Part shown: positions 43,032 to 61,783 of the stretch, in pieces
How the letters are laid out: each line of letters opens with the position of its first letter
Position numbering within the stretch: position 1 is the stretch's first letter
Origin: an uncultured Oscillospiraceae bacterium
GTDB taxonomy: Bacteria > Bacillota > Clostridia > Oscillospirales > Oscillospiraceae
Length of the DNA stretch: 64,000 nt
Direction of reading: 5' to 3'
Assembly: GCA_949841355.1 (NCBI GenBank)
Contig: CATKZP010000017.1
Coordinates: 1 to 64,000, forward strand
Notes under the pieces: model-generated
What the model saw: the letters and a program-made list of their open reading frames with translations, nothing else
The model's database searches: none
What the model was told of the DNA's origin: nothing
Program-made: the position numbers and the translations under genes

Positions 43032-43035
43032 TTAG

Positions 43036-43578
43036 TCACGACCCTTCATCTACTTCCGCCTGGAAGCGGCATACCCGGTCGCCGGTGGCCCAGCAATTCA
43101 CTTCCACCGCGCTGTAGGGCTTTTGCGTATAGGCGGTGAGCACTCCCGCCAAAAAGCCTTCGTCATAATTGCAGACCGTTTCCCCCAGCGTAGGAAGGCC
43201 GGAACAGTCTGCGTCCTCCGCAAGGGTGAGGACCATTTTGCCGGTATCCGCTTCGGCTTCCTCCACCCGGAGCACGCCGATCTTCATTTCCTCCAGCTTC
43301 CTTTGCAGCTGGGCGATGAAATCAGACAGCTCCAGCGTCAGGTCCAGATAGTGCTTGGCAAAGAAGGTCCCTGCCCGGCAGCCGGCGCCCCGGAAGATCT
43401 GAATTTGAGCCTCTTTTCCGAACCGCTCGGTGAGCTCATCCTTGAAAGAATATTCCAAGAGGCGGTACACCGCCACAGGCAGGTCTGCGCCCAGGTTCTC
43501 CCGCCCGCTGTCCTGAAGTCCGGCGCAGCCCGACAGCTTTAGACTGCCTTCGCCGGACAAAAATCCGCTGTATTCCAT
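43036..43578 (-). CDS. V4R (4VR) domain ligand-binding protein
   Basis: A 180-residue protein with a C-terminal V4R domain (FLAGVLTAYTQKPYSAVEVNCWATGDRVCRFQAE), a small-molecule or heme-type sensor fold related to those in phenol- and chlorophyll-linked regulators. An N-terminal helical region precedes it (FRGAGCRAGTFFAKHYLDLTLELSDF). Start chosen at ATG 43578, where AAGGAGC lies 6 nt upstream; longer in-frame starts at 43602 and 43659 have poorer sites. It is encoded immediately before the degenerate GGDEF sensor, suggesting the two work as a sensing pair. The ligand is unknown. Confidence 0.78.
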   Translation of the reverse strand: MEYSGFLSGEGSLKLSGCAGLQDSGRENLGADLPVAVYRLLEYSFKDELTERFGKEAQIQIFRGAGCRAGTFFAKHYLDLTLELSDFIAQLQRKLEEMKIGVLRVEEAEADTGKMVLTLAEDADCSGLPTLGETVCNYDEGFLAGVLTAYTQKPYSAVEVNCWATGDRVCRFQAEVDEGS

Positions 43579-43878
43579 GAAATGCTCCTTATCAAATGAC
43601 ATTTTCCCAATATTGTCCTTCCGCAAGGATGTCGAAGCGGAAAATTGAGATTCCGGCACATTATACCATAGATTGCTGGAAAGTTCAATATGCTTCTTGG
43701 CGCATCATTAGGACGAATTGGATGAGATGGACTCAGATGGGGACCGCTGGACCTCTCTGTGAGCGCTGTTTGAAAGTTGTGAATTCTCACAAATGATTCA
43801 ATCTATTTTCTCAATTTATGAGATGAATAGCACAGATTGAGCGTGCTATGATAAAACCATAAACTGGAGGACAGGCAG
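43579..43878 (+). promoter_or_regulatory. Control region of the glycyl-radical island
   Basis: No gene in 300 bp. It contains two inverted repeats: TTGTGA-ATTC-TCACAA at 43778-43793, and CTATTTTCTCA (43803-43813) with TGAGATGAATAG (43819-43830). A TATGATAAA -10-like element at 43847 follows with no good -35 element, which would suit an activator-dependent promoter. A PucR-type regulator is encoded in the same island. Confidence 0.5.
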
Positions 43879-44841
43879 GTGAACAAGGTCATGGGAACTG
43901 TGACTGAGGAGCTGACGGGGCTGATATTTGATGTCCAGCGCTACTCGATACACGACGGGCCGGGGATTCGGACGCTGATTTTCATGAAGGGCTGTCCTCT
44001 GCGCTGCCGGTGGTGCTCCAACCCGGAGGGCCTGACGGGCGGAATGGATATTTTGTCCGAGCCGCAAAAGTGCATCGGGTGCGGGAAGTGCCGGGAGGAA
44101 TGCCCAAGCGGCGCGATTTCACTGAACGCGGAAACCGGGTTTCAGATCGACCGCCAGCGCTGCCAGCGCTGCGGCATCTGCGCGCAGACGTGCCCATCCG
44201 GCTCCAAAGAGGCGGTGGGCAGGCGCGTCACTGTGCGCGAGGCAGTCCATATCATCCAGCGGGAGGCCGCTTTTTACAAAGACAGCGGCGGCGGGGCCAC
44301 TTTGGGCGGCGGAGAGATCCTGATGCAGCCCGAGTTTGTGTATGAGGTGCTCCAGGGCTGCCATGCGCAGGGAATCAATACTGCGGTGGAAACCAGCGGG
44401 TACGGCCAGTGGAGTTGGCTGAAGCGGATCATATCCGCCGCAGACACGGTGTTTATGGACTTGAAAGCGGCAAACGATCGGACCCATCGAGAGATAACCG
44501 GGGTTTCGAATGAACTGATTCTGGACAATCTCAAGCGGACGGACGAATGCTTTGGGACGCCGGAGTATGCGGGAAAGGATTTTATTATCCGTATGCCGGT
44601 CATTCCCGGAATGAATGACAGCGAGGCGGACGCCGCAGCTGCGTCGAGATTTTTAAAAACGCTGCATCATTGCCGGGGAATTGAGATTCTTCCGTTCCAC
44701 AATTTCGGAGAGAGAAAATATGCCAAGCTGGACCGCTGCTACGAATTTGCCGGAAGGCCTAACAGCGGGGAGGAGGACGTAACGCAGTTTCAGCGAGTCC
44801 TCTCAGTGTGCGGTCACAGGGTATGGGTGGGGAAAATCTGA
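43879..44841 (+). CDS. Glycyl-radical enzyme activating protein (radical SAM)
   Basis: A 320-residue activase. The radical SAM motif is CPLRCRWC (CxxxCxxC, residues 39-46). Two ferredoxin-like 4Fe-4S motifs follow (CIGCGKCREECP and CQRCGICAQTCP, about 63-110), as in activases of non-PFL glycyl-radical enzymes; PFL activase lacks that insert. VTVREAVHIIQREAAFYKDSGGG, GGEILMQPEFV and AVETSGYG are standard. GTG at 43879 is used, with GGAGG 7 nt upstream. It uses SAM and an electron to put the glycyl radical on the enzyme encoded 149 bp downstream. Confidence 0.92.
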   Translation: MNKVMGTVTEELTGLIFDVQRYSIHDGPGIRTLIFMKGCPLRCRWCSNPEGLTGGMDILSEPQKCIGCGKCREECPSGAISLNAETGFQIDRQRCQRCGICAQTCPSGSKEAVGRRVTVREAVHIIQREAAFYKDSGGGATLGGGEILMQPEFVYEVLQGCHAQGINTAVETSGYGQWSWLKRIISAADTVFMDLKAANDRTHREITGVSNELILDNLKRTDECFGTPEYAGKDFIIRMPVIPGMNDSEADAAAASRFLKTLHHCRGIEILPFHNFGERKYAKLDRCYEFAGRPNSGEEDVTQFQRVLSVCGHRVWVGKI

Positions 44842-44990
44842 CCCTGGAGGTTCCGGGCGGCACATGTTTAGCGGGGCATACACAGCGGAAAAGGAGGTGT
44901 CCGCAAGAATCCGGTGCAGGAACAGCCAGAGCCAGGACGAAATAGCTGCTTTTGCGGCACAAAAAGTGATGTGCAGAAAAGGAGGAAATT

Positions 44991-47402
44991 ATGTTTTACG
45001 AAGCCACTGACAGAGTGAAAAGACTCAGAGAGAGGTTCCTGACCTACAAGCCCAACGTGGATATCGAGCGGGCGGTGATTTACACCCGGCTGTTCAAGGA
45101 ATCGGATGAGCTGAAGGGGTATCCCCAGATCATTGCCGGAGCGAAGGCCTTCGCGGCGTTTTTGAAGGAACGCACCATCTACATTGAGGAGGACCAGCTT
45201 TTCGCCGGCTCCTTCGGGCGCAAGCCGCGGGCGTTCCCCATCTATCCGGAGACCTTGGGCGATGATATGGTGGCAGAGTACCGCAAGCTGCCCACCCGTC
45301 CCATCGACCCATTTGAGTACTCTGAGGAGGACCGGGTTGTGCTGGAAGAGAAGCTCCGCAAGTGGCATGGCGCGGGGATGCGTTCCTTTGTGTTCGGTGA
45401 TATGCCGCTGGAGGACAAGCGCTTTTTCCTGAAGGACCCGGAGCACAACATCGTGGGCGGTACCTATATTTTCTCTCTGGATGTTCCGCTGAACGGCCCC
45501 GCAGGACATATCAGCCCCGATTATCAGGCGATCATGGAGCTGGGCTTCCAGGGGATCAAGCGCAAGGCTGAGCTGCGCTTGGAGGAGGCCCTGGCAGAGA
45601 AGGACGAGGAGGGAGTCAATTTCCTCAAAGCGGTTATCATCTGCTGTGACGCGATCACCGATTTCGGCCACCGCTATGCCGCCCTGGCGCGGGAGATGGC
45701 CGGACAGGAGCAGGATGAGCATCGCCGGAAGGAACTGCTGGATCTGGCCGAGATATGCGACCGGGTGCCCGGCCTGCCGCCCCGCACCTTCCGGGAGTGC
45801 CTACAGACGGTGTGGTTCACCTTTGTAGGCATTCAGATGGAGGCGTTTGAGCGCTGCTTCAGCTGCAGCCGCCTGGACCAGTACGCCTACCCCTTCCTGA
45901 GAGCCGATCTGGACGCGGGGCGCATCACCGAGGCCCAGGCGCAGGAGATGCTGGACTGCCTGTGGATGAAGTTCCCCGAGACCAACTACATCAATTCCGA
46001 GCACCAGAGCTATGTGGTGTCCGGGTTCCCGTCTCAGCAGCAGATCATTGTGGGCGGCCAGACGCCGGACGGTGAGGACGCCACCAACCTGCTGAGCTAC
46101 ATGTGCATACAGGCGTCTATCAACACACTGCTGCACCAGCCCAGCATTTCGGTGCGCTACTTTGAAGGAACGCCGGACGCTCTGATTGAACAGGCCTGCC
46201 GCCTGGCGCGGATGGGCGCGGGGCATCCCTCGTTCTTCAATGACCTGCGCTGTGTGCCCGCATTGGTGTTTAAGGGTATTAAGCTGGAGGACGCCCGGGA
46301 CTACTGCTCGGTGGGCTGCGCCAGCGTTCAGCCCACCCGCAAGGATAAGGGCACGCACAACTGCGGCTATATCAATGTGGCCTCGGCGCTGGAATTCGCT
46401 CTGCGTGACGGTTTCTGGAAGAAGGGAAATTCTCAGGTCAGCATCCACACCGGCGACGCGGCCCAGTTCAAGAGCTTCGACGAGGTAATGAACGCCTTTG
46501 AAAAGCAGCTGGCCTATATGATCGGCATATACTCCCGCAGCGCGGTTAAGGTGGAGCAGGCCCACAAGGCGATCTGTCCCACGCCGTATATCTCCAGTTT
46601 TGTTCAGGACTGCATCGGCAAGGCGCGGGACAAGAGCGCTGGCGGCGCGCTCATCAACTCCGGCCCCACCCCGCGGGGCATCGGTCTGGCCGACGTGGCA
46701 GACTCGCTGGCCGCGCTGAAAAAGTGGGTGTTTGAGGAAAAGAAGTACACTATGCAGCAGGTCCTGGACGCCATGGACCGGAACTTTGAGGGCGACGAGG
46801 AGATGCGCCAGGTGCTGGCCAACAAGACGCCGCGCTACGGCAATGACGACGAGTATGTGGATGAGATCGCAAAGCGGGTGGTGGAGATCTATGGCGGCGA
46901 GACGGATAAGTACCGCAGCCTGTTCGGAGGCCGCTTCCATCCCGGCTTCAGCTCGGTGTCCGCCAACGTACCCTATGGCACCTCTGTGTGCGCGCTGCCC
47001 GATGGCCGCAGGGAATACACCCCCCTGTCCGACGGGAATTCGCCCTGCCACGGCGCAGATGTGAACGGTCCTACCGCCGCGGCGATCTCCTGCGGCAAGC
47101 TGCGCCATGAGCTGATGAGCGGCGGCTCTATTTTGAATATCAAGTTCACGCCCTCCACGCTGGAAGGAGAGGCAGGGCTGAAGAATTTTGTGGAATACGT
47201 CAAGGGCGCTATGAACGCCGGGGTCTGGCATGTCCAATTCAATGTGGTGGACGCTGATACGCTCAGAGACGCGCAGGTCCACCCGGAGGAGCACAATGAT
47301 CTGATCGTCCGCGTGGCGGGCTACAGCGCGTTCTTTACCGGCCTGAGCGACATGCTGCAGGAGGACGTGATCGGCCGCACAGAGCATGTAATCCGGCGCT
47401 GA
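44991..47402 (+). CDS. Glycyl-radical enzyme, unassigned subclass
   Basis: An 803-residue enzyme of the pyruvate formate-lyase / diol dehydratase superfamily. The glycyl-radical loop VRVAGYSAF gives Gly777, 26 residues from the end. The active-site cysteine is Cys443 in VGCASVQP. Most dehydratase and decarboxylase members carry Cys-X-Glu there; this one has Ser at the Glu position, so the usual general acid/base is missing. Other family elements are present: GHPSFFND, SGPTPRGIGLADVADSLAALKKWVFEEKK and SANVPYG with DGRREYTPLSDG. AAAGGAGG precedes the start. Neighbours encode CoA-linked beta-oxidation. Possible reactions include C-C bond formation to fumarate, or C-C, C-O or C-N cleavage; not assignable from sequence alone. 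Confidence 0.9.
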   Translation: MFYEATDRVKRLRERFLTYKPNVDIERAVIYTRLFKESDELKGYPQIIAGAKAFAAFLKERTIYIEEDQLFAGSFGRKPRAFPIYPETLGDDMVAEYRKLPTRPIDPFEYSEEDRVVLEEKLRKWHGAGMRSFVFGDMPLEDKRFFLKDPEHNIVGGTYIFSLDVPLNGPAGHISPDYQAIMELGFQGIKRKAELRLEEALAEKDEEGVNFLKAVIICCDAITDFGHRYAALAREMAGQEQDEHRRKELLDLAEICDRVPGLPPRTFRECLQTVWFTFVGIQMEAFERCFSCSRLDQYAYPFLRADLDAGRITEAQAQEMLDCLWMKFPETNYINSEHQSYVVSGFPSQQQIIVGGQTPDGEDATNLLSYMCIQASINTLLHQPSISVRYFEGTPDALIEQACRLARMGAGHPSFFNDLRCVPALVFKGIKLEDARDYCSVGCASVQPTRKDKGTHNCGYINVASALEFALRDGFWKKGNSQVSIHTGDAAQFKSFDEVMNAFEKQLAYMIGIYSRSAVKVEQAHKAICPTPYISSFVQDCIGKARDKSAGGALINSGPTPRGIGLADVADSLAALKKWVFEEKKYTMQQVLDAMDRNFEGDEEMRQVLANKTPRYGNDDEYVDEIAKRVVEIYGGETDKYRSLFGGRFHPGFSSVSANVPYGTSVCALPDGRREYTPLSDGNSPCHGADVNGPTAAAISCGKLRHELMSGGSILNIKFTPSTLEGEAGLKNFVEYVKGAMNAGVWHVQFNVVDADTLRDAQVHPEEHNDLIVRVAGYSAFFTGLSDMLQEDVIGRTEHVIRR

Positions 47403-47444
47403 GAAGCGGTCCGAAAAGCCGGGAAATAAAACTGGTTTAGGGAA

Positions 47445-47485
47445 ATCGTCTTACGCCGGTGTGAAATACGCCGGCGTAAGACGAT
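47445..47485 (+). repeat. 15-bp perfect inverted repeat between GRE and beta-oxidation genes
   Basis: Arms ATCGTCTTACGCCGG (47445-47459) and complement (47471-47485), loop of 11 nt, with no T run after it. It sits in the 131-bp gap between the radical enzyme and the first crotonase. A processing or stability hairpin or a regulator site. Confidence 0.8.
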
Positions 47486-47533
47486 AAAAGGGGACTTTTG
47501 CAATACAGCCGCCGAGCTGAGGGAGAGGAAATT

Positions 47534-48337
47534 ATGGAAGAGTATAAAGAGATATTGTTTGAGGTGGAACGGTATGTTGCGACGATCACGCTCAACCGTC
47601 CCGAGGCGTATAACGCGCTCTCCGATGTGATGCGTGCCGATCTGCGCAGGGCGGTGGCGTATATCAACGCCCATGAGGATGAGATCCGGATTGTGGTCAT
47701 TACCGGCGCGGGAAAGGCCTTTTGCGCCGGCGGGGATATCAAGCTGATGAAGAAGCGCATTGAGGACGGAACGAGCTATGACCAGCGGCTGGACACCTAC
47801 CGGCGGGATGTGGCGGATATGGTGCTGCTGCTGCGCGGCATCCGCCAGCCGGTAATTGCTGCGCTGAACGGGGCGGCATACGGTGCGGGATGCAGCATCG
47901 CTATGCTGTGCGATATCCGGGTGGCTGCGGACTGCGCCAGATTCGGCCTGCCCTTCGGCAGGCGGGGGCTCATCCCGGACTGGGGCGCCACCTACTTCCT
48001 GCCCCGGATTGTGGGGCCGGCCAAGGCCATTGAGCTGTCGTCCACAGGAAACTCGTTTGGAGCACAGGAGGCGAAGGAAATGGGGCTGGTCAATCTGGTG
48101 GCGTCGGCGGATCAGCTCCGGGCACAGGTGCGCCGGCTCTGTGATGACATGCTGCTCACCAGCCCGGAGTCGCTGCGCCTGGGCAAAGCCGCCATTTATG
48201 GCAGCATGAGCATAGGTTTGGCGGAGGCGTTGGAGGCGGAGGGGGCTGCCCAGAGCGCCTGCTACACCTCGGACGACCATAGAGAGGGTGTGGACTGCTT
48301 CCTGGAGAAACGGCCGCCGGTTTTCACCGGAAAGTAG
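47534..48337 (+). CDS. Crotonase-superfamily protein, PaaG-like isomerase type
   Basis: A 267-residue crotonase. The acyl-CoA oxyanion-hole motifs are present (GAGKAFCAGGDIKLMK; NGAAYGAGCSIAMLCDIRVA). Both hydratase glutamates are replaced: Ser121 and Phe141 occupy their positions. Instead FGRRGLIPDWGATYFLPRIVG carries Asp149 in the PD motif seen in PaaG-type enoyl/epoxy-CoA isomerases and some ring-modifying crotonases. It therefore probably isomerises or rearranges a CoA thioester and does not hydrate a double bond. GAGAGG lies just upstream of the ATG. It is the first CoA gene after the radical enzyme. Confidence 0.85.
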   Translation: MEEYKEILFEVERYVATITLNRPEAYNALSDVMRADLRRAVAYINAHEDEIRIVVITGAGKAFCAGGDIKLMKKRIEDGTSYDQRLDTYRRDVADMVLLLRGIRQPVIAALNGAAYGAGCSIAMLCDIRVAADCARFGLPFGRRGLIPDWGATYFLPRIVGPAKAIELSSTGNSFGAQEAKEMGLVNLVASADQLRAQVRRLCDDMLLTSPESLRLGKAAIYGSMSIGLAEALEAEGAAQSACYTSDDHREGVDCFLEKRPPVFTGK

Positions 48338-48402
48338 GCGTGCGGCCGCGTCGGAGACTGTGTGGTACCCTTATGAAATTACATGATGCGAGGAAACGAG
48401 AA

Positions 48403-49626
48403 ATGATGAAAAACAGACAGGTGGTAATTACCCACGGCGTGCGCACTGCGATTGGCAAGATCGGCAAATCGCTGAAGGATGTCTGCGATACGGATTTGGC
48501 AGTGACCGTACTCAACGATCTGATCGACCACCGGGCCAAAATCGGCCGCGGAGAGATCGACCAGGTGATTTTGGGGGAGGTCAAGCAGAAGGCCGACCCG
48601 GCCAATGTGGCCCGCGTGGCGGCACTGCGGGCCGGGTTTCCGGAGGAGGTGCCGTGCTATACGGTCAACCGCCAGTGCGGTTCCGGGCTCCAGGCGATTA
48701 TAGACGCCTGTGAGATGATTGCGGCAGACGAAGCGGAAGTGATCGTGGCGGGCGGTGTGGAGAATATGAGCCAGTCGGTCTACTTCATGCGCGGCGCCCG
48801 CGAGGGCCTGGGAAACGGTGCGTATTCCATTGAGGATTCCTTGACCGATGGCGGGCCGGGCGCAATTCCTGCGCAGCGCTACGGTTATCATCCCATGGGA
48901 ATTACCGCAGAGAAGCTGGCCGGGATATATGGGCTGACCCGGCGGCAGCAGGACGAATTCGCCATGAACAGCCAAGTCAAAATGGCGCAGGCCATCCAGA
49001 GCGGACGCTTTCGGGAACAGATCGTCCCCGTCACCGTGGGCGAGGGGGACGCGCGCCGTGTGTTTGAGGTGGATGAGCACCCATTTTTGTCCTCCATGGA
49101 AAAGCTGGGGGCGCTGAAGCCGGCGTTTAAAAAGGACGGCTCAGTGACGGCTGGGAACTCCTCCGGCCGCAACGACGGCGCGTCGGCTGTGCTGATGATG
49201 TCGGAGGAAAAGATGATGGCCTTGGGGTACCGGCCCATGGCCAAGGTGATCGGCGTGGGGAGCAGCGGCTGCGATCCCACGGTGATGGGCCTGGGGCCGG
49301 TAGAGAGCTCGCGGCTGGCGATGAGCCGGGCGGGAGTGAGCATCCATGACCTGGATGTGATTGAGCTGAACGAGGCGTTCGCGGCCCAGTCGCTGGCGGT
49401 GATTGAGGAGTGGAAAAAGCTGGGTATTGAGGAAGCGCAGCTGCTGGCGAAGATCAACCCCAACGGCGGCGCCATTGCTCACGGGCACCCGCTGGGCTGC
49501 ACCGGCTGCGCGCTGACCGTCAAATGCATGTATGAACTGCACAGACGCCCGGAGGCGAGGTATGGATTGATTACGCTGTGCTGCGCCGGCGGGCTGGGCG
49601 TGGCTGTGGTCATTGAGAAATGTTGA
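48403..49626 (+). CDS. Acetyl-CoA C-acyltransferase (thiolase), catalytically complete
   Basis: A 407-residue thiolase with the full catalytic set: nucleophile Cys92 in NRQCGSGLQ, NEAFAAQ, His362 in GGAIAHGHPLGC, and the acid/base Cys393 in CCAGGLG (a variant of CxGGG). Length is normal (390-410). It cleaves a 3-ketoacyl-CoA to acetyl-CoA (or succinyl-CoA) and a shortened acyl-CoA, or condenses them. AGGAAA precedes the ATG at 48403; an ATG follows immediately in frame. It is directly followed, 11 nt later, by a second thiolase-fold gene that lacks the catalytic residues. Confidence 0.92.
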   Translation: MMKNRQVVITHGVRTAIGKIGKSLKDVCDTDLAVTVLNDLIDHRAKIGRGEIDQVILGEVKQKADPANVARVAALRAGFPEEVPCYTVNRQCGSGLQAIIDACEMIAADEAEVIVAGGVENMSQSVYFMRGAREGLGNGAYSIEDSLTDGGPGAIPAQRYGYHPMGITAEKLAGIYGLTRRQQDEFAMNSQVKMAQAIQSGRFREQIVPVTVGEGDARRVFEVDEHPFLSSMEKLGALKPAFKKDGSVTAGNSSGRNDGASAVLMMSEEKMMALGYRPMAKVIGVGSSGCDPTVMGLGPVESSRLAMSRAGVSIHDLDVIELNEAFAAQSLAVIEEWKKLGIEEAQLLAKINPNGGAIAHGHPLGCTGCALTVKCMYELHRRPEARYGLITLCCAGGLGVAVVIEKC

Positions 49627-49637
49627 GGAGTGGGACG

Positions 49638-50759
49638 ATGAACAAGGTTTTGATCGCAGGGTCCGCCCGAACCCCGATTGGTATTTACGACGGCAGGCTT
49701 AAGGACCACAGGGAGCAGTCGCTGGCCGTGATTGCCGCGAAGGCCGTGCTGGAGCGGACAGGGATCGGCGGGGAGGATGTGGACGAGCTGATTGTGGGCA
49801 TTGCCAAGCAGACCAGTTCGCCCTCCAACGCCGCGCGTTACATCGGTCTGGCGGCGGATATTCCGGAGCCGGTGCCCGCCTATACGGTGCAGCGCCAGGG
49901 CGCTTCCGGAATGCAGGCGGTGATAAACGGATTTATGAAAATTCGAGCGGGCAGCGCCGGTGTCATTCTGGCTGGCGGGGCTGAGAGCATGACGCAGATA
50001 CCCTATGAGATTCAAAACGCCAGGTACAGCTTTTCGCCGGATAAGATCGTAATGGACCCCATCGGGGCTATGGTGGCCGGTGGTCAGCCGGAAGAGCGGT
50101 ATGGCCGCCTGACCATCGGGCAGATGAACGATGCGGTGGCGGCGGCCCATGGCTATTCGCTGGCGGCTCAGCGGGCCTATGCCCAGGCGAGTCTGGAAAA
50201 GGCCGGAGTGCCGGGGCTGGACGAAGCGCTGACTCCTGTGGCGGTCAAGGTGAAAAAAACTCAGGAACTGGTCACGGAGGATGAGCTGTACGCCCAGGCG
50301 AATGTGACCGCAGGACCGGCGGACGCGGCGGCTATGTGCGTGCTGATGGACGGGAACACCGCGCAGCGGCGGGGAATCAGAGGGGCAGCGGAACTGGTAT
50401 CCGTAGGGATCAGCGCCGGCTCGCCCGGCGGCGCAGGCATGGTGGGCACGCGGGCCATCCGGGAGGCGCTGAAAAAGGCTGGGAGGACGGCCGCAGATAT
50501 GGACATGATTGAGATTAACGAAATCACCGCGGCGCAGGCAATGGCGGCCATTGAGGAGCTGGGACTGCCGGAAGGGGCAAGGGAGAGGGTCAATCCCTTT
50601 GGTGGAGCACTGGCAACAGGGAACGCCTGGGGAGCGTCCGGCTGCATCGCGCTGCACAGACTGCTGTATGGACTGAGGGCCAGAGGCGGCCGGTGGGGCC
50701 TGGCGGTGTGCGGCGCGGAGGGCGGACAGGCGCTGGCGGCGGTCATCCGCATTTGTTAA
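49638..50759 (+). CDS. Thiolase-fold protein lacking catalytic Cys and His
   Basis: A 373-residue thiolase paralogue. The nucleophilic cysteine is replaced (RQGASGMQ, Gly88 where RQCGSG is expected), NEAFA reads NEITA, and the GHP histidine is Asn in GGALATGNAWGASG; only the C-terminal cysteine (VCGAEGG) remains. The fold is otherwise intact, with a full-length frame, GAGGAG ribosome site and no stop, so it is maintained and is not a simple pseudogene. It may be a structural or regulatory partner of the upstream thiolase, or bind acyl-CoA without cleavage. It is also about 30 residues shorter than the active copy. Confidence 0.88.
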   Translation: MNKVLIAGSARTPIGIYDGRLKDHREQSLAVIAAKAVLERTGIGGEDVDELIVGIAKQTSSPSNAARYIGLAADIPEPVPAYTVQRQGASGMQAVINGFMKIRAGSAGVILAGGAESMTQIPYEIQNARYSFSPDKIVMDPIGAMVAGGQPEERYGRLTIGQMNDAVAAAHGYSLAAQRAYAQASLEKAGVPGLDEALTPVAVKVKKTQELVTEDELYAQANVTAGPADAAAMCVLMDGNTAQRRGIRGAAELVSVGISAGSPGGAGMVGTRAIREALKKAGRTAADMDMIEINEITAAQAMAAIEELGLPEGARERVNPFGGALATGNAWGASGCIALHRLLYGLRARGGRWGLAVCGAEGGQALAAVIRIC

Positions 50760-50774
50760 ACGGGAGGGAAAAAC

Positions 50775-51662
50775 ATGTCTGTCAAAAAACTGGCCGTAAT
50801 TGGAGAGGGGCGAATGGGTTCCGGCATCGCGCAGCACATCGCGGCGTGCGGCATACCGGTGGTGCTGGACGGTATTTCTGAGCAGAGCGTATCCAACGCC
50901 CTTGGGATGATTGAAAAAAATTATGCCCGCAATGTCGAAAAAGGCCGTATGTCAGAAGAGGAAAAGGGGCGGGCGCTGGAGAATATCACGATCACCAGCA
51001 AACTGGAGGACACCGCAGACTGTGAATTCATCATCGAATGTGTCTATGAGGACGCCCAACTGAAAACCGGCATCTTTGCCAAACTCAATGAGATATGTCC
51101 GGAGAGCACGATTTTCGCCAGCAATACGTCAGCCATTCCCATCAGCACCCTGGCCAACGGCTGCGGGCGGCCCGACCGGTTGGTGGGCACACACTTCTTC
51201 AACCCCGCGCCGGTGATGAAGCTGGTGGAGATCGTCCGAGGCTTCAAAACGTCGGACGAAACGCTGAACACGGCCAAACAGCTCGTCGCGGAGCTGGGTA
51301 AAGTGGGGGTGGTGGTGTCGGACACGCCCGGGTTCCTGGTAAACCGGCTGATGCACGCGTTCCGCAATGAGGCGCTGATCTGCCTGCAGGAGGGCGTGGC
51401 CACTATGGAGGACATTGATACCGCCGTGGAGCTGGGCCTCGGGCATCCGATGGGACCCTTTGCCCTCAATGATTTTGCGGGGCTGGACATTGGCCTGTCC
51501 GCTGCGGCCACTCTTTATGATAATTTCAAAGATCCCAAGTGGCGTCCCAATCTGATGGTCAAAAAGCTGGTGGAGGCGGGCGATTTGGGCCGGAAAACCG
51601 GAAAGGGCTGGTATGACTATACCTCCGGCAAAAAAGAACTGAGAACGGATATTCATTTTTGA
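50775..51662 (+). CDS. 3-hydroxyacyl-CoA dehydrogenase
   Basis: A 295-residue NAD-dependent dehydrogenase of the 3-hydroxybutyryl-CoA type, usual length about 280-300. The N-terminal Rossmann loop is altered slightly (AVIGEGRMGSGIAQH, residues 7-21). The catalytic region shows ASNTSAIPIS and THFFNPAPVMKLVEIV with the active histidine, and VSDTPGFLVNRL and GPFALNDFAGLD complete the domain. It oxidises (S)-3-hydroxyacyl-CoA to 3-ketoacyl-CoA. It stands between the thiolase pair and the enoyl-CoA hydratase, giving the order expected for anaerobic beta-oxidation. GGGAGGG precedes the start. Confidence 0.93.
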   Translation: MSVKKLAVIGEGRMGSGIAQHIAACGIPVVLDGISEQSVSNALGMIEKNYARNVEKGRMSEEEKGRALENITITSKLEDTADCEFIIECVYEDAQLKTGIFAKLNEICPESTIFASNTSAIPISTLANGCGRPDRLVGTHFFNPAPVMKLVEIVRGFKTSDETLNTAKQLVAELGKVGVVVSDTPGFLVNRLMHAFRNEALICLQEGVATMEDIDTAVELGLGHPMGPFALNDFAGLDIGLSAAATLYDNFKDPKWRPNLMVKKLVEAGDLGRKTGKGWYDYTSGKKELRTDIHF

Positions 51663-51701
51663 ACGGTTATGTTCTGCCAAATATGATTTGCAGGGAAGAG
51701 G

Positions 51702-52508
51702 GTGAGCAAAACGGTGACTTACTTGGAAAAAAATTATCACACCCTTCGCGTAGAGCGGAAAGACGGCATTGCGGTGGTGCGTTTCAACAGGCCGGAGGCC
51801 ATGAACGCGGCAAATATTGAGATGAGCATGGAACGCGTGGAACTCTACGCGGGCTTGGCCTATGATCCTGACGTAAAGGTGGTGATCATCACCGGGAATG
51901 AAACGGCATACTGCGCCGGCGGAGATCTGGCGGCCTTTTCCCGGTTTGACCAGGCTGAGGCGAAGGCGTTCGCCATGCGCGGACTGGACTATCAGAAGCT
52001 GCTGATGGACATGCCCAAGCCCACCATTGCGGCGGTGGCAGGCTACGCCTATGGCGGTGGAATGGAAAACGTGCTGCTGTGCGATCTGCGCATCGCGGCG
52101 GAAAACGCCAGGTTTGCCCTTCCGGAGATTAAGGTCGGCATATTCCCCGGCGGAGGGGGGACGCAGCGTCTGGTGCAGAATACGTCCATCTGTAAGGCCA
52201 AAGAGATGATTTTCTTCGGGGAACCCATTGACGCCCAGGAGGCGTACCGGATGGGGATTGTCAACAAGGTCGTTCCCACCGGGGAGTTGATGGATGCGGC
52301 GATGGACTGGGCGAAACGGCTGTGCAGACGGCCGCCTGCCGCTCTGCGCGAGGCGAAAAAGGCGGTCAATGCGGCGTGGGGCTCGGACATCTATGCGGGA
52401 ATGGAGCGGGAAATTGAGGCGTGGTCGGGCCTGTATGGGACGGCCGATCAAAAGGAAGGGATGAGCGCTTTCTTGGAGAAGAGGCGCGCAAACTTCACCG
52501 GCGGCTAA
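51702..52508 (+). CDS. Enoyl-CoA hydratase (canonical crotonase)
   Basis: A 268-residue enoyl-CoA hydratase. Both catalytic glutamates are present: Glu122 in GGGMENVLLCD and Glu142 in ALPEIKVGIFPGGGGTQRL. The first oxyanion-hole loop reads GNETAYCAGGDL. It hydrates a trans-2-enoyl-CoA to the 3-hydroxyacyl-CoA used by the dehydrogenase encoded 39 nt upstream. GTG at 51702 is used, with AGGGAAGAGG adjacent; a GTG 12 nt further is an alternative. Together with the PaaG-like crotonase at 47534 it gives two functionally distinct crotonases in the island. Confidence 0.92.
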   Translation: MSKTVTYLEKNYHTLRVERKDGIAVVRFNRPEAMNAANIEMSMERVELYAGLAYDPDVKVVIITGNETAYCAGGDLAAFSRFDQAEAKAFAMRGLDYQKLLMDMPKPTIAAVAGYAYGGGMENVLLCDLRIAAENARFALPEIKVGIFPGGGGTQRLVQNTSICKAKEMIFFGEPIDAQEAYRMGIVNKVVPTGELMDAAMDWAKRLCRRPPAALREAKKAVNAAWGSDIYAGMEREIEAWSGLYGTADQKEGMSAFLEKRRANFTGG

Positions 52509-52525
52509 AGAAAGAGAGGGTACGC

Positions 52526-53938
52526 ATGGAAGGCATTACATTATCAATCATTATCGGAATTTTGGTCGTTTTCATTGGCATGGCAGTTTTGGGCATCATC
52601 TCCGTGAGGAAGATCAAAAACGCGGAGGATTTTGTGGTAGCAGGCAAGCGGGCCTCCCCGGTGATGATCGCTGGTACCATTTTGTGTGCCATCGTGGGCT
52701 CCGGCGGCACCATCGGTACGGCGCAGACTGCGTTTACCTATGGCATTGTGGGGTGGTGGCAGACGCTGGGACTGTCCATCGGGTGCTTTATCCTGGGCTG
52801 CTGCCTATCGCAGTTTATCTATAAGATGACCACGGCGCAGACGATTTCCCAAATCATGAAGCACACCTACGGCAAAAAAATCGTCGCGGTGACTGCAGTG
52901 TTCAGCTCCATCGCCATTTTCTTTTCCATTCTGTCCCAGTCCAAGGGATTCATCCCGCTGATTACGTCTATCATGGACGTGTCGAACTACACTGCTGCGG
53001 GGATCTGCTTCGTACTGGTATGCGCTTTTGTGGTGTTTGGCGGTATCTTTGCCAACAGTGTGGGCGGCCTAGTGAAAATGGCCCTGGTCTATATCGGGGT
53101 GATCCTCAGCGCGGCTATTGCCATGATTTCGGTGGGGGGCTTCTCCGGCATAACCGAAAAGCTGGGCAGCGATGTATGGAGCCTGTTCGCCCGCAGTACA
53201 GGGAAGAACGGCAGCTTTTATGATATTGGTATCGGCGTGGGCTTTATTCTTGGTGTGCTGGTCACCCAAACCTACATTCAAGCTGTCCTGTCCGCACGAG
53301 ATGCAAAAGCGGCCCGAAACAGGTGTATCTTGGGCGGAGCGCTGTGCCTGCCCGTGGGCTTCCTGTGCGCGCTGATCGGCATGTATATGAAGGTCAATTT
53401 CCCCGACATGGAGGCCAGCCGCGTCCTGCCCATGTTTATGGTCCAGCACTATCCGGGGGTGATCGCCGGCATTTTCATCGGGGGATTGATGCTGGCTGCG
53501 CTGACCTCCAACGCGGGTCTTTCGCTGAGCGTGGCGACGCTGCTCCAGCGGGATGTGATCTGCCGCAATAAGCCGGATATGGACCAGAAAAAGCAGCTGG
53601 TTATCCTGCGTGTTCTGATCGTTGTGATTGTGGCGCTGAGCTGCGTGTTCTCAGTGACTACATTGGGCACCTATATTCAGACGTTTATCTTCCTCTCCTA
53701 TGGGATGCGCACCACGGTATTTTTGGTGCCCATGCTGGCGGCGTTCTTTTACAAGGGGAGGCTGACCAAGAGTGCCGGAATCGCGGCGGCCATTGCGGGC
53801 CCTGTGATGGACATTATCGCCTACTTCGTTCTGGGCAAGAGCGGTACGCATGTGTTCTGGGGACTGGGCGCATCCCTGATTGTATTCATTGTGGTCAATC
53901 TGCTGGCAAAGGATGTTGTGGAAAACCGGGAGCTGTAA
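52526..53938 (+). CDS. Sodium:solute symporter (SSS family)
   Basis: A 470-residue membrane transporter of the SSS/PutP family with about 12-13 hydrophobic segments. Landmarks are NAEDFVVAGKRASPV after the first helix, CAIVGSGGTIGTAQTAFTYGI with the sodium-site serine/glycine run, and SNAGLSLSVATLLQRDV, equivalent to the sodium-binding loop. It probably imports the island's substrate with sodium. Relatives carry proline, pantothenate, short carboxylates and related solutes, so the substrate is not predictable. It starts 17 nt after the hydratase, so it belongs to the same transcript. Confidence 0.9.
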   Translation: MEGITLSIIIGILVVFIGMAVLGIISVRKIKNAEDFVVAGKRASPVMIAGTILCAIVGSGGTIGTAQTAFTYGIVGWWQTLGLSIGCFILGCCLSQFIYKMTTAQTISQIMKHTYGKKIVAVTAVFSSIAIFFSILSQSKGFIPLITSIMDVSNYTAAGICFVLVCAFVVFGGIFANSVGGLVKMALVYIGVILSAAIAMISVGGFSGITEKLGSDVWSLFARSTGKNGSFYDIGIGVGFILGVLVTQTYIQAVLSARDAKAARNRCILGGALCLPVGFLCALIGMYMKVNFPDMEASRVLPMFMVQHYPGVIAGIFIGGLMLAALTSNAGLSLSVATLLQRDVICRNKPDMDQKKQLVILRVLIVVIVALSCVFSVTTLGTYIQTFIFLSYGMRTTVFLVPMLAAFFYKGRLTKSAGIAAAIAGPVMDIIAYFVLGKSGTHVFWGLGASLIVFIVVNLLAKDVVENREL

Positions 53939-54021
53939 GGTATGAGGGACTGCCGCGCCCGGCTGTCAGATAGACGGCCGGGCAGCGGGACATCAAGAGT
54001 ATAACGAGGAGGTAGTATGCT

Positions 54022-55206
54022 ATGGCGTGCCCATTGCAGGGTATACGTGTATTTGAGCTGACGCATGTGATTTCCGGGTCCGTGGCCGGTATGCTGCTGG
54101 GCGATCTGGGGGCGGAAGTAATCAAGGCGGAACGTCCGGGCGTGGGAGAGTTTTACCGGGAGGAAGCGCTGAAAAACGAGGCGGGAATCAGCATCGTCTT
54201 TCCGACTTATAACCGGAACAAAAAGGGGATTACACTGAACCTGAAGGCGCCGGAAGCCAGGGAGATCGTGCACAGGTTGGTGCGGGAAAGCGACATCATG
54301 CTGGAAAATTACCGCCCTGGGGTGCTGGACAGCATGGGTTTGGGCTATGAGGCACTGAAGGAGATCAATCCCAGGTTGGTTATGGTGTCCATTTCCGGGT
54401 TCGGACAGACCGGTCCATACGCCTCAAAACCGGCCTATGACATGACGATCTCCGCCATCAGCGGCTTTATGTCCATGAACGGACCGCCCGGTCAGCCAAC
54501 GAAAAACGGACCTGCGGTTTCCGATTTTCTGTCCGGCATCTATGGCTGCCTGGCGGCTATGGCCGCGCTGCGCCACCGCGACCGCACCGGTGAGGGACAG
54601 CACGTGGACGTGTCCATGATGGATTGCGGCATGTCGTTGCTGGACGCATTCTTTGCCCAATACCGTTTTACCGGCGTGGAGCCCAAGTGCTGCGGGAACC
54701 GACGGGATAATTACGCGCCGGTCAACGCCTATCCCACTGCAGACGGCTATATCTATATCGCCGCCACGCTGAATAAGCACTGGACAGCCCTGGCAAAGAC
54801 GATGGGGCGGGGGGCTCTGGCGCAGGCGCCGGAAAATGAGACCGGTTCCCGGAGGAAAAGCCACGAAGAGGAGCTGGAGGGGATTGTTGCGCAGTGGGCC
54901 AAGGGTTATACTACTGTTCAACTGGTAAAGATGTTGGAGGCCGCCAATGTGCCGTGCGCCCCCGTGCAGAGTATCTCTCAGGTTATGGAGGACCCCCAGG
55001 TCAAGGCGAGGCAGTCGATTCTGGAATTTGAGTATCCAGGCCTGGGCTCCTATCCCGTCACCGCATTTGTGCCCAAGTTTTCCACCATCGAAGTGCCGAA
55101 GAAGCGCGCGCCGCTGCTGGGTGAAAACAATGAGGAGGTATATTGCGGTATGCTGGGCTACACGCATGAGCAATTTGAGCGGCTGAAGCAGTGTGGAACG
55201 GTTTGA
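54022..55206 (+). CDS. Family III acyl-CoA transferase (CaiB/BaiF type)
   Basis: A 394-residue CoA-transferase of the CaiB/BaiF/Frc family. N-terminal RVFELTHVISGSVAGMLLGDLGAEVIKAERPG is characteristic, followed by NRNKKGITLNL. The catalytic aspartate is Asp168 in AVSDFLSGIYG. C-terminal VPCAPVQSISQVMEDPQV is standard. The enzyme moves CoA from a donor thioester to a carboxylate without ATP. In this setting it probably activates the acid made or imported by the island. AGGAGG lies 9 nt before the ATG. Relatives with comparable roles are those for carnitine, benzylsuccinate and bile acids. Confidence 0.92.
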   Translation: MACPLQGIRVFELTHVISGSVAGMLLGDLGAEVIKAERPGVGEFYREEALKNEAGISIVFPTYNRNKKGITLNLKAPEAREIVHRLVRESDIMLENYRPGVLDSMGLGYEALKEINPRLVMVSISGFGQTGPYASKPAYDMTISAISGFMSMNGPPGQPTKNGPAVSDFLSGIYGCLAAMAALRHRDRTGEGQHVDVSMMDCGMSLLDAFFAQYRFTGVEPKCCGNRRDNYAPVNAYPTADGYIYIAATLNKHWTALAKTMGRGALAQAPENETGSRRKSHEEELEGIVAQWAKGYTTVQLVKMLEAANVPCAPVQSISQVMEDPQVKARQSILEFEYPGLGSYPVTAFVPKFSTIEVPKKRAPLLGENNEEVYCGMLGYTHEQFERLKQCGTV

Positions 55207-55296
55207 CAGGAGAGCGCACGGCATTTCCGGCCATAGGTTTATTGCCCTGCGCTGGTGCAGGCATAGGCGGCCCAGGGGAAGGAAGCGGGTATTGGC

Positions 55297-56901
55297 ATGA
55301 ACATTACACTAAGAAAGTTTTTACAGGATCATCGCAACAGGGACCTTATACTAGTGGCGGGCAGCGAAGGAATGGACAATGTGGTCGCGCGGGTGACCGT
55401 GCTTGACGCGCCGGATGGGCCGAGCTGGCTCAAGGGTGGCGAGCTGATCCTGACCTCTACGTTCCTGTTCAACAACGACCCGGACAGGCTTTGCTCCTTT
55501 TGTGAGCAGCTGATTCATATTAAGGCCTGCGGCTTCGGTTTGAAAATGGGCCGGTATCTCACCAAGGTGCCCCAGAGCCTGATTGATCTGTGCGACCGGA
55601 ACAACTTCCCGCTGATTATCATTCCTTACTCCTTTGTGTGGACAGACCTGATCTCCATTTTTTATGAAATGAGCTATAACCTGGAGCGAGAGGGGAAGTA
55701 CAGCACGCTGAAATCAAAGCTGGTTGGGCAAATCCGCGTCAGCGCCAATCAGGGGCTGGAATGGATTGGGGAGAAGGTCCATCTCTTCTTTGACACCCCC
55801 ATGCTGTTTCTGGACCAGCGGTGGACTCCTCTGGCCTGCTGCGGTTCGCAGGCGGAGCAGCAGGAGCTGAAACAGACCACCCTGGAGCTGCTTCGGGAAA
55901 TGCCCGATCTGTGGAGCAAAAAGCTGATCAGCGGAAGATATTACCAGTGCTGCCGCTGCATTCTGGAAAAGTTCGGGGCGCACTACGTGGTGTTTTCCTC
56001 CGACTCCCCAAATATCATCGGTGAGCTGAAAGATATCCTGATAGACGCGCGCATCATTCGGGATGACGAGAGGCTTATGCTGGGGTCAGAGGACGACATG
56101 ATCGGTCAGGCCCTGCCGCTGCTGATGGTGGGAGAGCAGATCTCGCCGGGTTTGTTGGAAAACCTGGAGCAGTGCATTAAGCAGACAGGCGGATATTACT
56201 GCATGCTGAACATTGAGGCATGCGCCACACAAAAGATCGTGGACGAGCTGAAGGATATTATCAGAAGCTGCCGCTTTGACACCAAGGTGTTTGCTGTTTA
56301 TCATTTGGAGAAGCTGCGGGCGGTGGTGCTGCTCCGGTTCCACAAGCTGAAGCAGCACTGCGATGCGGCGATACAGCTGCGCCAGATTATGCACGGTGCG
56401 GGGGAGTATCTGCTGGATGAGGAGACACATGAATCTATATTTGTCAGCAATGTCTACGACGCCTACAAAAAACTGGGGCAGTGTTGGCAGGAGGCCAGAC
56501 TAGCTGAGCAGTACGGAAGGCATATGTGGCCGCTGCGGCGGCTGTGCTATTTTGAAGAGGTGTTTCCCTATTATCTGATGATGAACAGCGACATTTCCCC
56601 CACATATCTGGATGGGCTGGAAAAGCTCCGGCAGGAGGCGGGAAATACGTCCTTCGACTGCCTGCAAACCCTGGAGGCATACCTGCGCTACGGCACATTC
56701 AAGCAGGCCGCACAGGAGCTGTTCATCCATGAGAATACGCTGCGCTACCGGATCAAAAAAATAGGAGACCTGCTGTACGCGGATTTTGACGACATCGCCA
56801 CCAGGCAGAACTATGTGATCCGCATGAATATGTGGAAGCTGAAGCAGGGGCTCACAGGGACAGGCGACACGGCGCCGGATGGAAAAATGCCGGAACTGTA
56901 G
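55297..56901 (+). CDS. PucR-family transcriptional regulator
   Basis: A 534-residue regulator. Residues 1-130 form a PucR N-terminal domain (LILVAGSEGMDNVVARVTVLDAPDGPSWLKGGELILTST, LIDLCDRNNFPLIIIP). A GGDEF-like middle domain without catalytic residues follows. The C-terminal HTH_30 (SFDCLQTLEAYLRYGTFKQAAQELFIHENTLRYRIKKIGDLL) is diagnostic. Members activate catabolic operons in response to a pathway substrate. It lies inside the island between CoA-transferase and carboxylate transporter and is the natural candidate to control it. The inverted repeats upstream of the activase are possible targets. The ribosome site is weak. Confidence 0.9.
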   Translation: MNITLRKFLQDHRNRDLILVAGSEGMDNVVARVTVLDAPDGPSWLKGGELILTSTFLFNNDPDRLCSFCEQLIHIKACGFGLKMGRYLTKVPQSLIDLCDRNNFPLIIIPYSFVWTDLISIFYEMSYNLEREGKYSTLKSKLVGQIRVSANQGLEWIGEKVHLFFDTPMLFLDQRWTPLACCGSQAEQQELKQTTLELLREMPDLWSKKLISGRYYQCCRCILEKFGAHYVVFSSDSPNIIGELKDILIDARIIRDDERLMLGSEDDMIGQALPLLMVGEQISPGLLENLEQCIKQTGGYYCMLNIEACATQKIVDELKDIIRSCRFDTKVFAVYHLEKLRAVVLLRFHKLKQHCDAAIQLRQIMHGAGEYLLDEETHESIFVSNVYDAYKKLGQCWQEARLAEQYGRHMWPLRRLCYFEEVFPYYLMMNSDISPTYLDGLEKLRQEAGNTSFDCLQTLEAYLRYGTFKQAAQELFIHENTLRYRIKKIGDLLYADFDDIATRQNYVIRMNMWKLKQGLTGTGDTAPDGKMPEL

Positions 56902-57010
56902 CAGCGGTAATCTCCTGCGCGGGACGCAAGCAGTGGAATAATGTCTTTCCATGCGGCTCCTCACCGGCGAGCGGGAAGGACAGCCGTACTGATGAAAAGG
57001 AGCGAATAGA

Positions 57011-58318
57011 ATGACTCCTGAGCAGTGGAGTATCGTAATCCTTGTGATCGTGATGGTGCTGTATGCTACGGAGGCCGTCCCGCTGGCGGTCACCGCGCTG
57101 GGCTCCTGCGCCGCGCTTGCAGTGATGGGGCTGGCCCCGGCGCCGGTGGTCTGGTCCGGCCTTGCGGCGGATACGACGCTGGTGGTGGCGGGTATGGTGG
57201 TGGTGGGCAATGCCCTCATTGAGACCGGTGCGGCGGTGAGCGTGGGTGATTGGATTCTGCGCCGTACGGGCGGAAGGCCGTATCTGTCCTGCTTCTGTCT
57301 GACCACAGTGGCTATGGTGCTGTCTGGGTTTATGAACAACTCCGCCGCCGTGGCCACCATGATGCCGGTAATGATCGGCCTTGCGGCGACTTCCGGCGGC
57401 CAGATTCACGAAAAGCGGTGGCTGCTCCCCATGGCCGCAGCCACAAACGCTGGAGGGATGCTGTCGTTGATTGGGACCACCTCGCAGATGATCGTGCAAA
57501 ACGCTTTGGAGGACCAGGGCTATGCCACATTTTCCTTTTTCGAGTTTGCCTGGATCGGTGTGCCGCTATGTCTGCTGTTTGTGCTTTATATGGGCACCAT
57601 CGGCAAGTGGGGTGGGAGGCGGCTGTGGCCGGAAGGAATACCGCACACCCAGGCGGTGCGCGAATTTGTCCCCGCTAGCCCAAAAGATATGGACGGTTGG
57701 GATCAAAAAAATATCCGCTGCAAGCAGGGGATAACCGCAGCGATCATGGCGGCGGCAATCTGCCTGATGGTGGCGGACGTGGGTATTTCCAACGGGACGA
57801 TTGCCATGACGGCGGCCGGACTGTGCGTGGCGGCGGGGTGCATTTCCCTCAAACACGTCTATCTGCGCTTTGACTGGAATACCATTTTCGTTCTGGCGGG
57901 AGGGATCGGGTTTGCCAACGGGCTGAGTCACTGCGGGGGCGGAGAGTTGATCGCCGGATGGCTTATGGGATTGTTCCGGGGTGCGCTGACCCCGCGCACA
58001 GTGTTTTTCATGTTCGTCGTCACAGCCGCGCTGCTCACCCAGTTTATGTCCAACACCGCTGTCGCCGCCATGCTGACCCCCATTGCACTCCCCTTTGTCA
58101 GCCAGCTAGGCGTCAACCCGGCGGCTCTGCTGATGGGGATATGCGCCGCTACAAATCTTTCCTTTTCCACGCCCATCGCCACACCGTCTATGACGCTGGT
58201 ATTGGGGCCAGGGGAGTACCGGTTCATTGTTTACGTAAAATGGTGCGGCCCCTTTAATCTGGTTTGCATCCTTTCCATTCTATGGATCGTACCGAAGGTG
58301 TGGCCGCTTATCCCATGA
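57011..58318 (+). CDS. SLC13/DASS-type carboxylate transporter
   Basis: A 435-residue membrane protein of the divalent anion:sodium symporter (CitT/SLC13-like) family with about 11-12 hydrophobic segments. Two Ser-Asn-Thr-type substrate motifs are visible in duplicated halves: MNNSAAVATMMPVMI and MSNTAVAAMLTPIALPF. The pair fixes sodium and carboxylate in VcINDY-like transporters. Likely cargo is a di- or tricarboxylate such as fumarate, succinate or malate; this is inference from the family. It is the last gene of the island, followed by a terminator. Confidence 0.85.
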   Translation: MTPEQWSIVILVIVMVLYATEAVPLAVTALGSCAALAVMGLAPAPVVWSGLAADTTLVVAGMVVVGNALIETGAAVSVGDWILRRTGGRPYLSCFCLTTVAMVLSGFMNNSAAVATMMPVMIGLAATSGGQIHEKRWLLPMAAATNAGGMLSLIGTTSQMIVQNALEDQGYATFSFFEFAWIGVPLCLLFVLYMGTIGKWGGRRLWPEGIPHTQAVREFVPASPKDMDGWDQKNIRCKQGITAAIMAAAICLMVADVGISNGTIAMTAAGLCVAAGCISLKHVYLRFDWNTIFVLAGGIGFANGLSHCGGGELIAGWLMGLFRGALTPRTVFFMFVVTAALLTQFMSNTAVAAMLTPIALPFVSQLGVNPAALLMGICAATNLSFSTPIATPSMTLVLGPGEYRFIVYVKWCGPFNLVCILSILWIVPKVWPLIP

Positions 58319-60456: not shown

Positions 60457-60473
60457 GGCAGACCCTCCTCAAA

Positions 60474-60509
60474 AAATAGGAGCGCCGCCCGCCGGGGCGG
60501 CGCTCCTGT
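60474..60509 (-). terminator. Terminator of the SH3-domain protein gene
   Basis: Stem AGGAGCGCCGCCC with complement, T run on the minus strand. Confidence 0.82.
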
Positions 60510-60513
60510 GTGG

Positions 60514-61641: not shown

Positions 61642-61691
61642 ATTGGGATTCCTCCTTGGCCGGGAAAACTCGAAACTTGTCGGTTATCCCT

Positions 61692-61720
61692 ATCTTACAC
61701 GTTTTGCACCCGTTCGTCAA
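61692..61720 (-). promoter_or_regulatory. Promoter of the SH3-domain protein gene
   Basis: Minus strand TTGACG (61715-61720), 17-bp spacer, TAAGAT (61692-61697). Confidence 0.7.
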
Positions 61721-61754
61721 TCCCTTTATTATGTAACCCTGCTGCGTTTTGCCC

Positions 61755-61783
61755 TTGCGGGCCGGGCGGAAATGGAGTATAAT
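61755..61783 (+). promoter_or_regulatory. Promoter of the CbbX-type ATPase gene
   Basis: TTGCGG (61755-61760), 17-bp spacer, consensus TATAAT (61778-61783). Confidence 0.72.

Follow-up and report, generated by a model that had tools for sequence, protein, structure and literature searches.

A glycyl-radical enzyme subfamily with an altered active site in a candidate acid-catabolic operon of an uncultured Oscillospiraceae bacterium

The window analysed here, i.e. the whole 64,000-nucleotide stretch (positions 1 to 64,000 of contig CATKZP010000017.1) from an uncultured Oscillospiraceae bacterium, carries an eleven-gene operon built around a glycyl-radical enzyme (GRE) that, judged from its sequence, is a subfamily of its own, distinct from the named GRE families. 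The active site of this enzyme is altered, and its operon points to the breakdown of an acid to acyl-coenzyme A (acyl-CoA) compounds. We propose, with a probability of roughly 45%, that the genes constitute a dedicated catabolic operon for an imported carboxylate, probably a dicarboxylate, in which the GRE yields an enoyl- or 3-hydroxyacyl-level product that a CoA module then breaks down. If true, radical chemistry replaces the first dehydrogenation of β-oxidation.

The original prediction, made from the window alone, described eleven same-strand genes for a radical enzyme and its activase, two crotonases, two thiolase-fold proteins, a 3-hydroxyacyl-CoA dehydrogenase, a family III CoA-transferase, two carboxylate-type transporters and a PucR regulator. 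Open reading frames (ORFs) and Pfam matches far beyond chance confirm this content, which spans 43879-58318, all on the plus strand:

43879-44841, plus strand: act, GRE activase, a radical SAM protein with two ferredoxin-type clusters (Radical_SAM 4e-17)
44991-47402, plus strand: GRE of the new subfamily (PFL-like 649 bits, Gly_radical 108.5 bits)
47534-48337, plus strand: ech1, crotonase 1, probably an enoyl-CoA isomerase of PaaG type (ECH_1 1e-61)
48403-49626, plus strand: thl1, thiolase 1, BktB/3-oxoadipyl-CoA-thiolase-like (thiolase 5e-74; TIGR01930 425.6 bits)
49638-50759, plus strand: thl2, pseudo-thiolase, catalytic residues not aligned (thiolase 1e-35)
50775-51662, plus strand: hbd, 3-hydroxyacyl-CoA dehydrogenase (3HCDH_N 7e-62)
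51702-52508, plus strand: ech2, crotonase 2, enoyl-CoA hydratase type (ECH_1 3e-68)
52526-53938, plus strand: sodium:solute symporter (SSF 5e-19)
54022-55206, plus strand: class III CoA-transferase, nearest the succinate-glutarate/hydroxymethylglutarate type (CoA_transf_3 3e-121)
55297-56901, plus strand: PucR-family regulator (PucR 3e-26, HTH_30 1e-14)
57011-58318, plus strand: CitMHS/DASS-type carrier, di- or tricarboxylate type (CitMHS 1e-53, Na_sulph_symp 4e-19)

Some of the predicted ORF starts are probably too early and, going by the translations, likelier lie near 47534 (ech1), 48403 (thl1), 49638 (thl2) and 52526 (SSF). The operon GRE is the sole PF02901 match in the assembly (44 contigs, 94.6% complete).

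Three features place the protein in the GRE superfamily, namely a C-terminal radical glycine motif (RVAGY, G777), a lone active cysteine (C443) and an adjacent activase. The activase scores above the cutoff of TIGR02494 (328.8 vs 174 bits) and under those of the specific activase equivalogs among the best 25 of the 69 NCBIfam families matched, and it retains an intact CX3CX2C motif (CPLRCRWC) together with two ferredoxin-type cysteine clusters. The GRE itself exceeds the cutoff of the general subfamily TIGR01774 (689.9 vs 678.2 bits) and stays under every equivalog cutoff among the 12 NCBIfam families matched, for example with 608 vs 1000, 588 vs 1100 and 551 vs 1050 bits. These curated cutoffs rule out CutC, HypD, HpsG/HpfG, PflD, IAD, HPAD and PFL as its identity. 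A quick maximum-likelihood tree of 37 rows groups all six full-length members of the family in one clade (Shimodaira-Hasegawa-like approximate likelihood-ratio test, SH-aLRT, 100) on a stem of 0.84 changes per column, apart from PflB and from the X-succinate synthase clade (TutD, MasD and L039; support also 100); the tree does not resolve the deeper branches, nor which clade is nearest to the family. The partial GRE of locus L027 was left out of the tree and of residue counts past position 464, and was counted at the position two residues after the active cysteine (Cys+2). Tight clustering with the choline, hydroxyproline or another characterised enzyme, against which the original prediction had staked its novelty, was thus not seen.

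The family also stands apart in its active site. Cys+2 is Ser in four of the seven members (S445 in the window GRE), Gly in the other three and Glu in none; Glu occupies this position in 22 of 24 non-family GRE rows, with Asp in L017 and Val in L032 as exceptions, and in 16 of 18 rows of a second alignment, setting aside TutD, MasD and L039, which all have Ser. Among the controls, PflB has Ser (CCVSPM) and YbiW Glu. No Pro follows the Cys+2 Ser in the family, unlike in the CMSP loop of X-succinate synthases, and the two adjacent active cysteines of pyruvate formate-lyase are absent, C443 being preceded by Gly where the PflB control has CC. Furthermore, the Asp of the HD motif is replaced by Asn, and the family-conserved residues R/K288, C289, Q349, R450, K453, N457 and R562 recur in at most one of 21 other rows. 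An Arg or Lys stands at the position aligned with the substrate His of glycerol dehydratase. According to PMC6181972, the Cys+2 Glu has a part in the thiyl dyad of both HPAD and IAD (Cys500/Glu502 in IAD), and PMC6453916 has the same Glu deprotonating the substrate hydroxyl in isethionate lyase. Loss of this Glu, with Ser or Gly in its place, favours C-C chemistry, either fumarate addition or a skeletal change. The changed residues point to a different reaction and perhaps to an anionic substrate, without naming it; that the substrate cannot be read from the sequence, as stated in the original prediction, still holds.

Some GRE homologues outside the family deserve mention in their own right. 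L032 (G120) has the loop GCVVPH, likewise devoid of Glu at Cys+2. L015 (G056:C1) has RVASYT instead of RVxGY, i.e. Ser at the radical glycine position, and resembles the aminoacyl radical enzymes described in PMC11528403. L039 (G571:C41:25000-33551), from Bacillota, encodes a genuine alpha subunit of benzylsuccinate synthase (1295 bits against TutD) together with a BssD-like activase and two proteins similar to class III CoA-transferase.

A census with two peptide patterns over the contigs of 84,980 species returned six related loci, a lower bound limited by the patterns, with which 12 window proteins were compared by Blast. Gene order is conserved outside the window genome, as far as Enterococcaceae, so the other outcome named as refuting the original prediction, an order confined to this genome, was not seen either. 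An uncultured member of the Eubacteriales (L023, GRE 86% identical) has act, GRE, ech1, thl1, thl2, hbd, ech2, SSF, CoA-transferase and PucR ordered alike (10 genes) in a stretch that ends soon after PucR. Vagococcus allomyrinae (L025, 69%) keeps the first nine genes in order with a PucR gene (27%) upstream, and a Peptococcaceae metagenome-assembled genome (L028, 71%) the first six, its contig ending inside hbd; the scanned flanking genes of these two loci look unrelated. Clostridium transplantifaecale (L024, 76%) has a reduced set of LysR, CitMHS, act, GRE, thl1, thl2, CoA-transferase and dehydrogenase. Since its CoA-transferase and dehydrogenase are distant versions (27% and 34%), functions rather than particular genes seem to be kept in this species. 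The two remaining loci have GREs of 53% identity: L026, whose contig appears to be that of L022 in G039 (a genome of the window's genus), encodes a DASS carrier, act, GRE, an ech1-like crotonase, CitMHS and a 689-residue OYE/FadH-like flavoenzyme, and L027, cut by its contig end, encodes a partial protein with a matching NAD/FAD domain followed by act and GRE.

Occurrence is sparse at every rank sampled, the window's own genome being counted in genus, class and phylum: two of 42 genomes of the genus match the GRE at 1e-200 (the window's own and G039), five of 391 in the class sample at 1e-200 and four of 398 in the phylum sample at 1e-225. Class and phylum matches beyond the family reach 700-788 bits vs 1511-1647 for members; of these eight, only L032 (Val) lacks Glu at Cys+2. 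In the family of C. transplantifaecale, only this species itself matches among 200 genomes. A GRE match was found in 150 of 72,556 plasmid records, each below 60% identity, with a best long match of about 37% among the 40 matches listed, so that no plasmid-borne member was seen. An order shared by Clostridia-type genomes and Enterococcaceae, together with this sparse occurrence, suggests that the operon is rare and has spread horizontally between lineages. Two carriers are strain-level genome records, Vagococcus allomyrinae BWB3-3 and Clostridium transplantifaecale Marseille-P8228, so that growth and expression experiments could be used to look for the substrate.

Two labels that the original prediction gave to genes beside the GRE need correcting, since Thl2 lacks thiolase catalytic residues and Ech1 both hydratase Glu. 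In an alignment of five copies of Ech1, these two Glu are absent and the Asp of PaaG-type isomerases (PDWGA) is kept; its third PDB match is a 1,2-epoxyphenylacetyl-CoA isomerase, and Ech1 is probably a PaaG-type enoyl-CoA isomerase. Both catalytic Glu are present in Ech2 (three copies aligned), and the catalytic residues of Thl1 are intact. In Thl2, the nucleophilic Cys, the catalytic His and the second Cys are unaligned in all six copies (window, L023, L024, L025, L028 and G517); the protein is probably a non-catalytic partner subunit of Thl1. The CoA-transferase best matches the succinate-glutarate CoA-transferase in NCBIfam (277.9 bits, under the cutoff of 750) and the succinate-hydroxymethylglutarate CoA-transferase in the PDB (237 bits), with benzylsuccinate CoA-transferase subunits at 145 and 124 bits. 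CitMHS/DASS carriers recur in the window, L024 and L026, and one lies near the GRE-less operon described below. Because of these carriers and of the CoA-transferase type, a carboxylate of di- or tricarboxylate type is favoured as the imported acid.

The original prediction called this a complete β-oxidation set. Hydratase, dehydrogenase and thiolase are there, yet the word is too strong, since the first oxidation step is missing: there is no acyl-CoA dehydrogenase within the operon. This absence is the operon's most informative feature. The simplest reading of it is a GRE product of enoyl or 3-hydroxyacyl level. Elsewhere in the genome there are three acyl-CoA dehydrogenase matches and two more thiolases (contigs 10 and 14), one of the former about 2.5 kb from the contig-14 thiolase; these dehydrogenases could in principle serve the pathway instead.

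With a Thl2 model, six of 348 phylum genomes match at 1e-75, one being the window's own. G517 has a Thl2 relative (440 bits) likewise devoid of the catalytic residues; the other four (L058-L061) retain them, so that L058, from the benzylsuccinate synthase-bearing genome G571, was set aside as an ordinary thiolase. The G517 locus (L063, G517:C3:77000-96900) encodes SSF, a class I CoA-transferase, thl1 (65%), thl2 (44%), hbd (59%), ech2 (68%) and an acyl-CoA dehydrogenase, as well as a FadA-like thiolase and an OYE that is 41% identical to the one in L026, with a CitMHS gene beyond on the other strand; there is no GRE among its ORFs. A methylmalonyl-CoA decarboxylase alpha-like gene lies nearby. 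Since the same module occurs in G517 with an acyl-CoA dehydrogenase and no GRE, it is a β-oxidation module with two alternative entries, in one of which the GRE with its CoA-transferase seems to replace the acyl-CoA dehydrogenase.

We thus propose the following pathway. The SSF carrier, the CitMHS carrier or both would import the acid. The activase would set a radical on G777, from which a thiyl radical would arise on C443, as the intact residues suggest. The GRE, devoid of the usual Cys-loop Glu and having gained R/K288, R450, K453 and R562, would convert the acid to an enoyl- or 3-hydroxyacyl-level product, C-C bond chemistry being a likelier route than the loss of water or an amine. The class III CoA-transferase would form the CoA ester, probably from succinyl-CoA as in its nearest relatives; Ech1 would then move the double bond, Ech2 hydrate, Hbd oxidise, and Thl1 with the non-catalytic Thl2 cleave to two acyl-CoAs. 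CoA transfer and β-oxidation are predicted from family membership and conserved residues, and the radical conversion is the new and least certain part. A broader notion, that the family is a further, independently evolved Bacillota GRE group which forms or rearranges C-C bonds of dicarboxylates and feeds a CoA pathway with a heteromeric, half-dead thiolase, is a tentative one, somewhat less likely than not.

Several observations weigh against this pathway. No member of the GRE family has been characterised, the AlphaFold model of the GRE is poor (mean predicted local distance difference test, pLDDT, 51.9), and the Cys+2 signature concerns one position only, which is Gly in three of seven members. 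The two best PDB matches of Ech1 are labelled hydratase/dehydratase. No match to ech1 or ech2 was found within the 22-kb L024 locus, so that an enoyl-isomerase route is not general unless a crotonase is encoded elsewhere. In the 53% subclade, neither thiolase nor CoA-transferase lies beside the GRE, and the best Thl2 match in G039 is not a close one (134 bits vs 595-650 in the four operon genomes), so the pathway there must differ. The dicarboxylate inference is weakened by the monocarboxylate type of the G517 CoA-transferase and by L023 and L025, which have no CitMHS gene in the stretch examined. Finally, the closest relatives of the GRE are eliminases or resemble them: the best solved ones are choline lyase (582 bits), 9rco, a "glycyl radical protein" (580), diol dehydratase (568) and glycerol dehydratase (566), those with a name thus being lyases and dehydratases, and the closest GREs found outside the family, the uncharacterised L040-L042 (40.5-42.5% identity), carry an eliminase-type GCVEP...HD loop.

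These last matches, three of the four best solved among them, make it a serious possibility, if one with the odds against it, that the GRE, as a dehydratase, amine-lyase or sulfonate-lyase that has diverged, uses another base and passes a keto or unsaturated acid on to the CoA module; an enoyl- or keto-level product would also fit the absent acyl-CoA dehydrogenase. Such an enzyme would have to work after the loss of the Cys+2 Glu in all seven members and of the HD Asp to Asn, and with Arg or Lys in place of the substrate His of glycerol dehydratase. The weights that we give to our proposal, to elimination and to fumarate addition overlap in part.

We consider it unlikely that the GRE adds its substrate, e.g. 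one with a carbinol C-H, to fumarate as a second X-succinate-synthase-like enzyme. For a hydroxy-substituted succinate, CoA transfer, a dehydrogenase and a thiolase would suffice, and these make up the reduced L024 set; the CoA-transferase is nearest to dicarboxylate types, and four of seven members share Ser at Cys+2 with TutD and MasD. As PMC12358834 describes, benzylsuccinate synthase (BSS) and MASS hold fumarate by a Cys-loop oxyanion hole and an Arg (Arg508, also in PMC11194802), and an Asn-to-Thr change between the two shifts the fumarate; the conserved R562 aligns with Asn615 of BSS (Thr in MasD), in an alignment that needs a gap. Against this, Arg508 (Cys+15) aligns with Gly454, albeit in a gapped loop alignment with other conserved basic residues nearby, and Trp613 and Gln707 are unmatched. 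The GRE lies outside the X-succinate clade, and the gaps flanking it (about 149 and 131 bases) are too short for BssB/C-like subunits; the operon holds no such accessory subunits, a negative that covers the operon, the rest of the genome not having been searched for them. Clade, Arg508 and the subunits missing from the operon speak against membership of the X-succinate synthases proper, and the missing acyl-CoA dehydrogenase adds to the case against fumarate addition.

That the GRE is a radical mutase which rearranges the carbon skeleton of an imported dicarboxylate, unsaturated or branched, is more improbable still. By chemical reasoning such a mutase would need no general base; carrier and CoA-transferase are of dicarboxylate type, and downstream of the GRE the window, L023, L025, L028 and L026 all have a crotonase of isomerase type. 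There is, however, no direct sequence evidence for it, and we know of no GRE mutase. That thiolase, dehydrogenase and crotonase, which are butyrate-pathway enzyme types, run in the reductive, butyrate-forming direction with the GRE merely supplying an intermediate is very improbable, given the two further thiolases and three acyl-CoA dehydrogenase matches elsewhere in the genome, the importers and CoA-transferase accompanying the module, and its place in G517 beside an acyl-CoA dehydrogenase, a FadH-like OYE and a FadA-like thiolase. We also weighed formate elimination from glutarate-type diacids, which a rough estimate based on formation energies led us to drop, and carnitine cleavage to acetoacetate, for which the sequences give no pointer.

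New GRE subfamilies have more than once brought unexpected anaerobic chemistry to light, such as the formation of skatole (PMC6181972) and of hydrogen sulfide from taurine (PMC6386719). A literature search returned no title or abstract opening that describes an operon of the present kind, which is weak evidence as most subscription papers lay outside its coverage.

Around the operon, scans for promoters and terminators gave no clear operon signal, and an Rfam search of the window returned two tRNAs and nothing else. Just upstream, on the minus strand at 41688-43659, a V4R-domain protein is encoded beside a GGDEF protein; at 59899-61782, a 627-residue ORF with no Pfam match adjoins an AAA protein.

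Among known systems, the X-succinate pathways are close, i.e. that of benzylsuccinate (bss-bbs; BSS, MASS) and, with it, the limonenylsuccinate operon outlined in PMC12583861. They share with the window a GRE and activase, a CoA-transferase and β-oxidation with dehydrogenase and thiolase, and their synthases share the Ser found in part of the family at Cys+2. Unlike them, the window has a GRE outside their clade with Arg508 unmatched, no accessory subunits or acyl-CoA dehydrogenase in the operon, and in addition acid carriers and a pseudo-thiolase partner. The benzylsuccinate analogy of the original prediction thus survives in the Ser/Gly Cys loop and the dicarboxylate-type CoA-transferase, and breaks down at clade, Arg508, accessory subunits and acyl-CoA dehydrogenase.

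The GRE eliminases (glycerol/propanediol dehydratase, choline trimethylamine-lyase, hydroxyproline dehydratase, isethionate/sulfopropanediol enzymes) are the closest named solved relatives by score and have a single active Cys as well, whereas the window GRE has replaced the Cys+2 Glu and the HD Asp and gained basic residues, and none of the 11 operon genes encodes an alcohol or aldehyde dehydrogenase. The CoA module recalls the diacid β-oxidation of lower phenylacetate (Paa) degradation in its PaaG-like isomerase, PaaF-like hydratase, PaaH-like dehydrogenase and BktB/PcaF-like thiolase; it differs in proteins that fall under the equivalog cutoffs, in the extra pseudo-thiolase and in its entry by GRE and CoA-transferase. 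The G517 operon, finally, is entered by a class I CoA-transferase and an acyl-CoA dehydrogenase and has the OYE and FadA-like thiolase in addition, yet it shares with the window thl1, pseudo-thl2, hbd and ech2 in the same order, the SSF carrier and a CitMHS gene, which in G517 lies nearby on the other strand.

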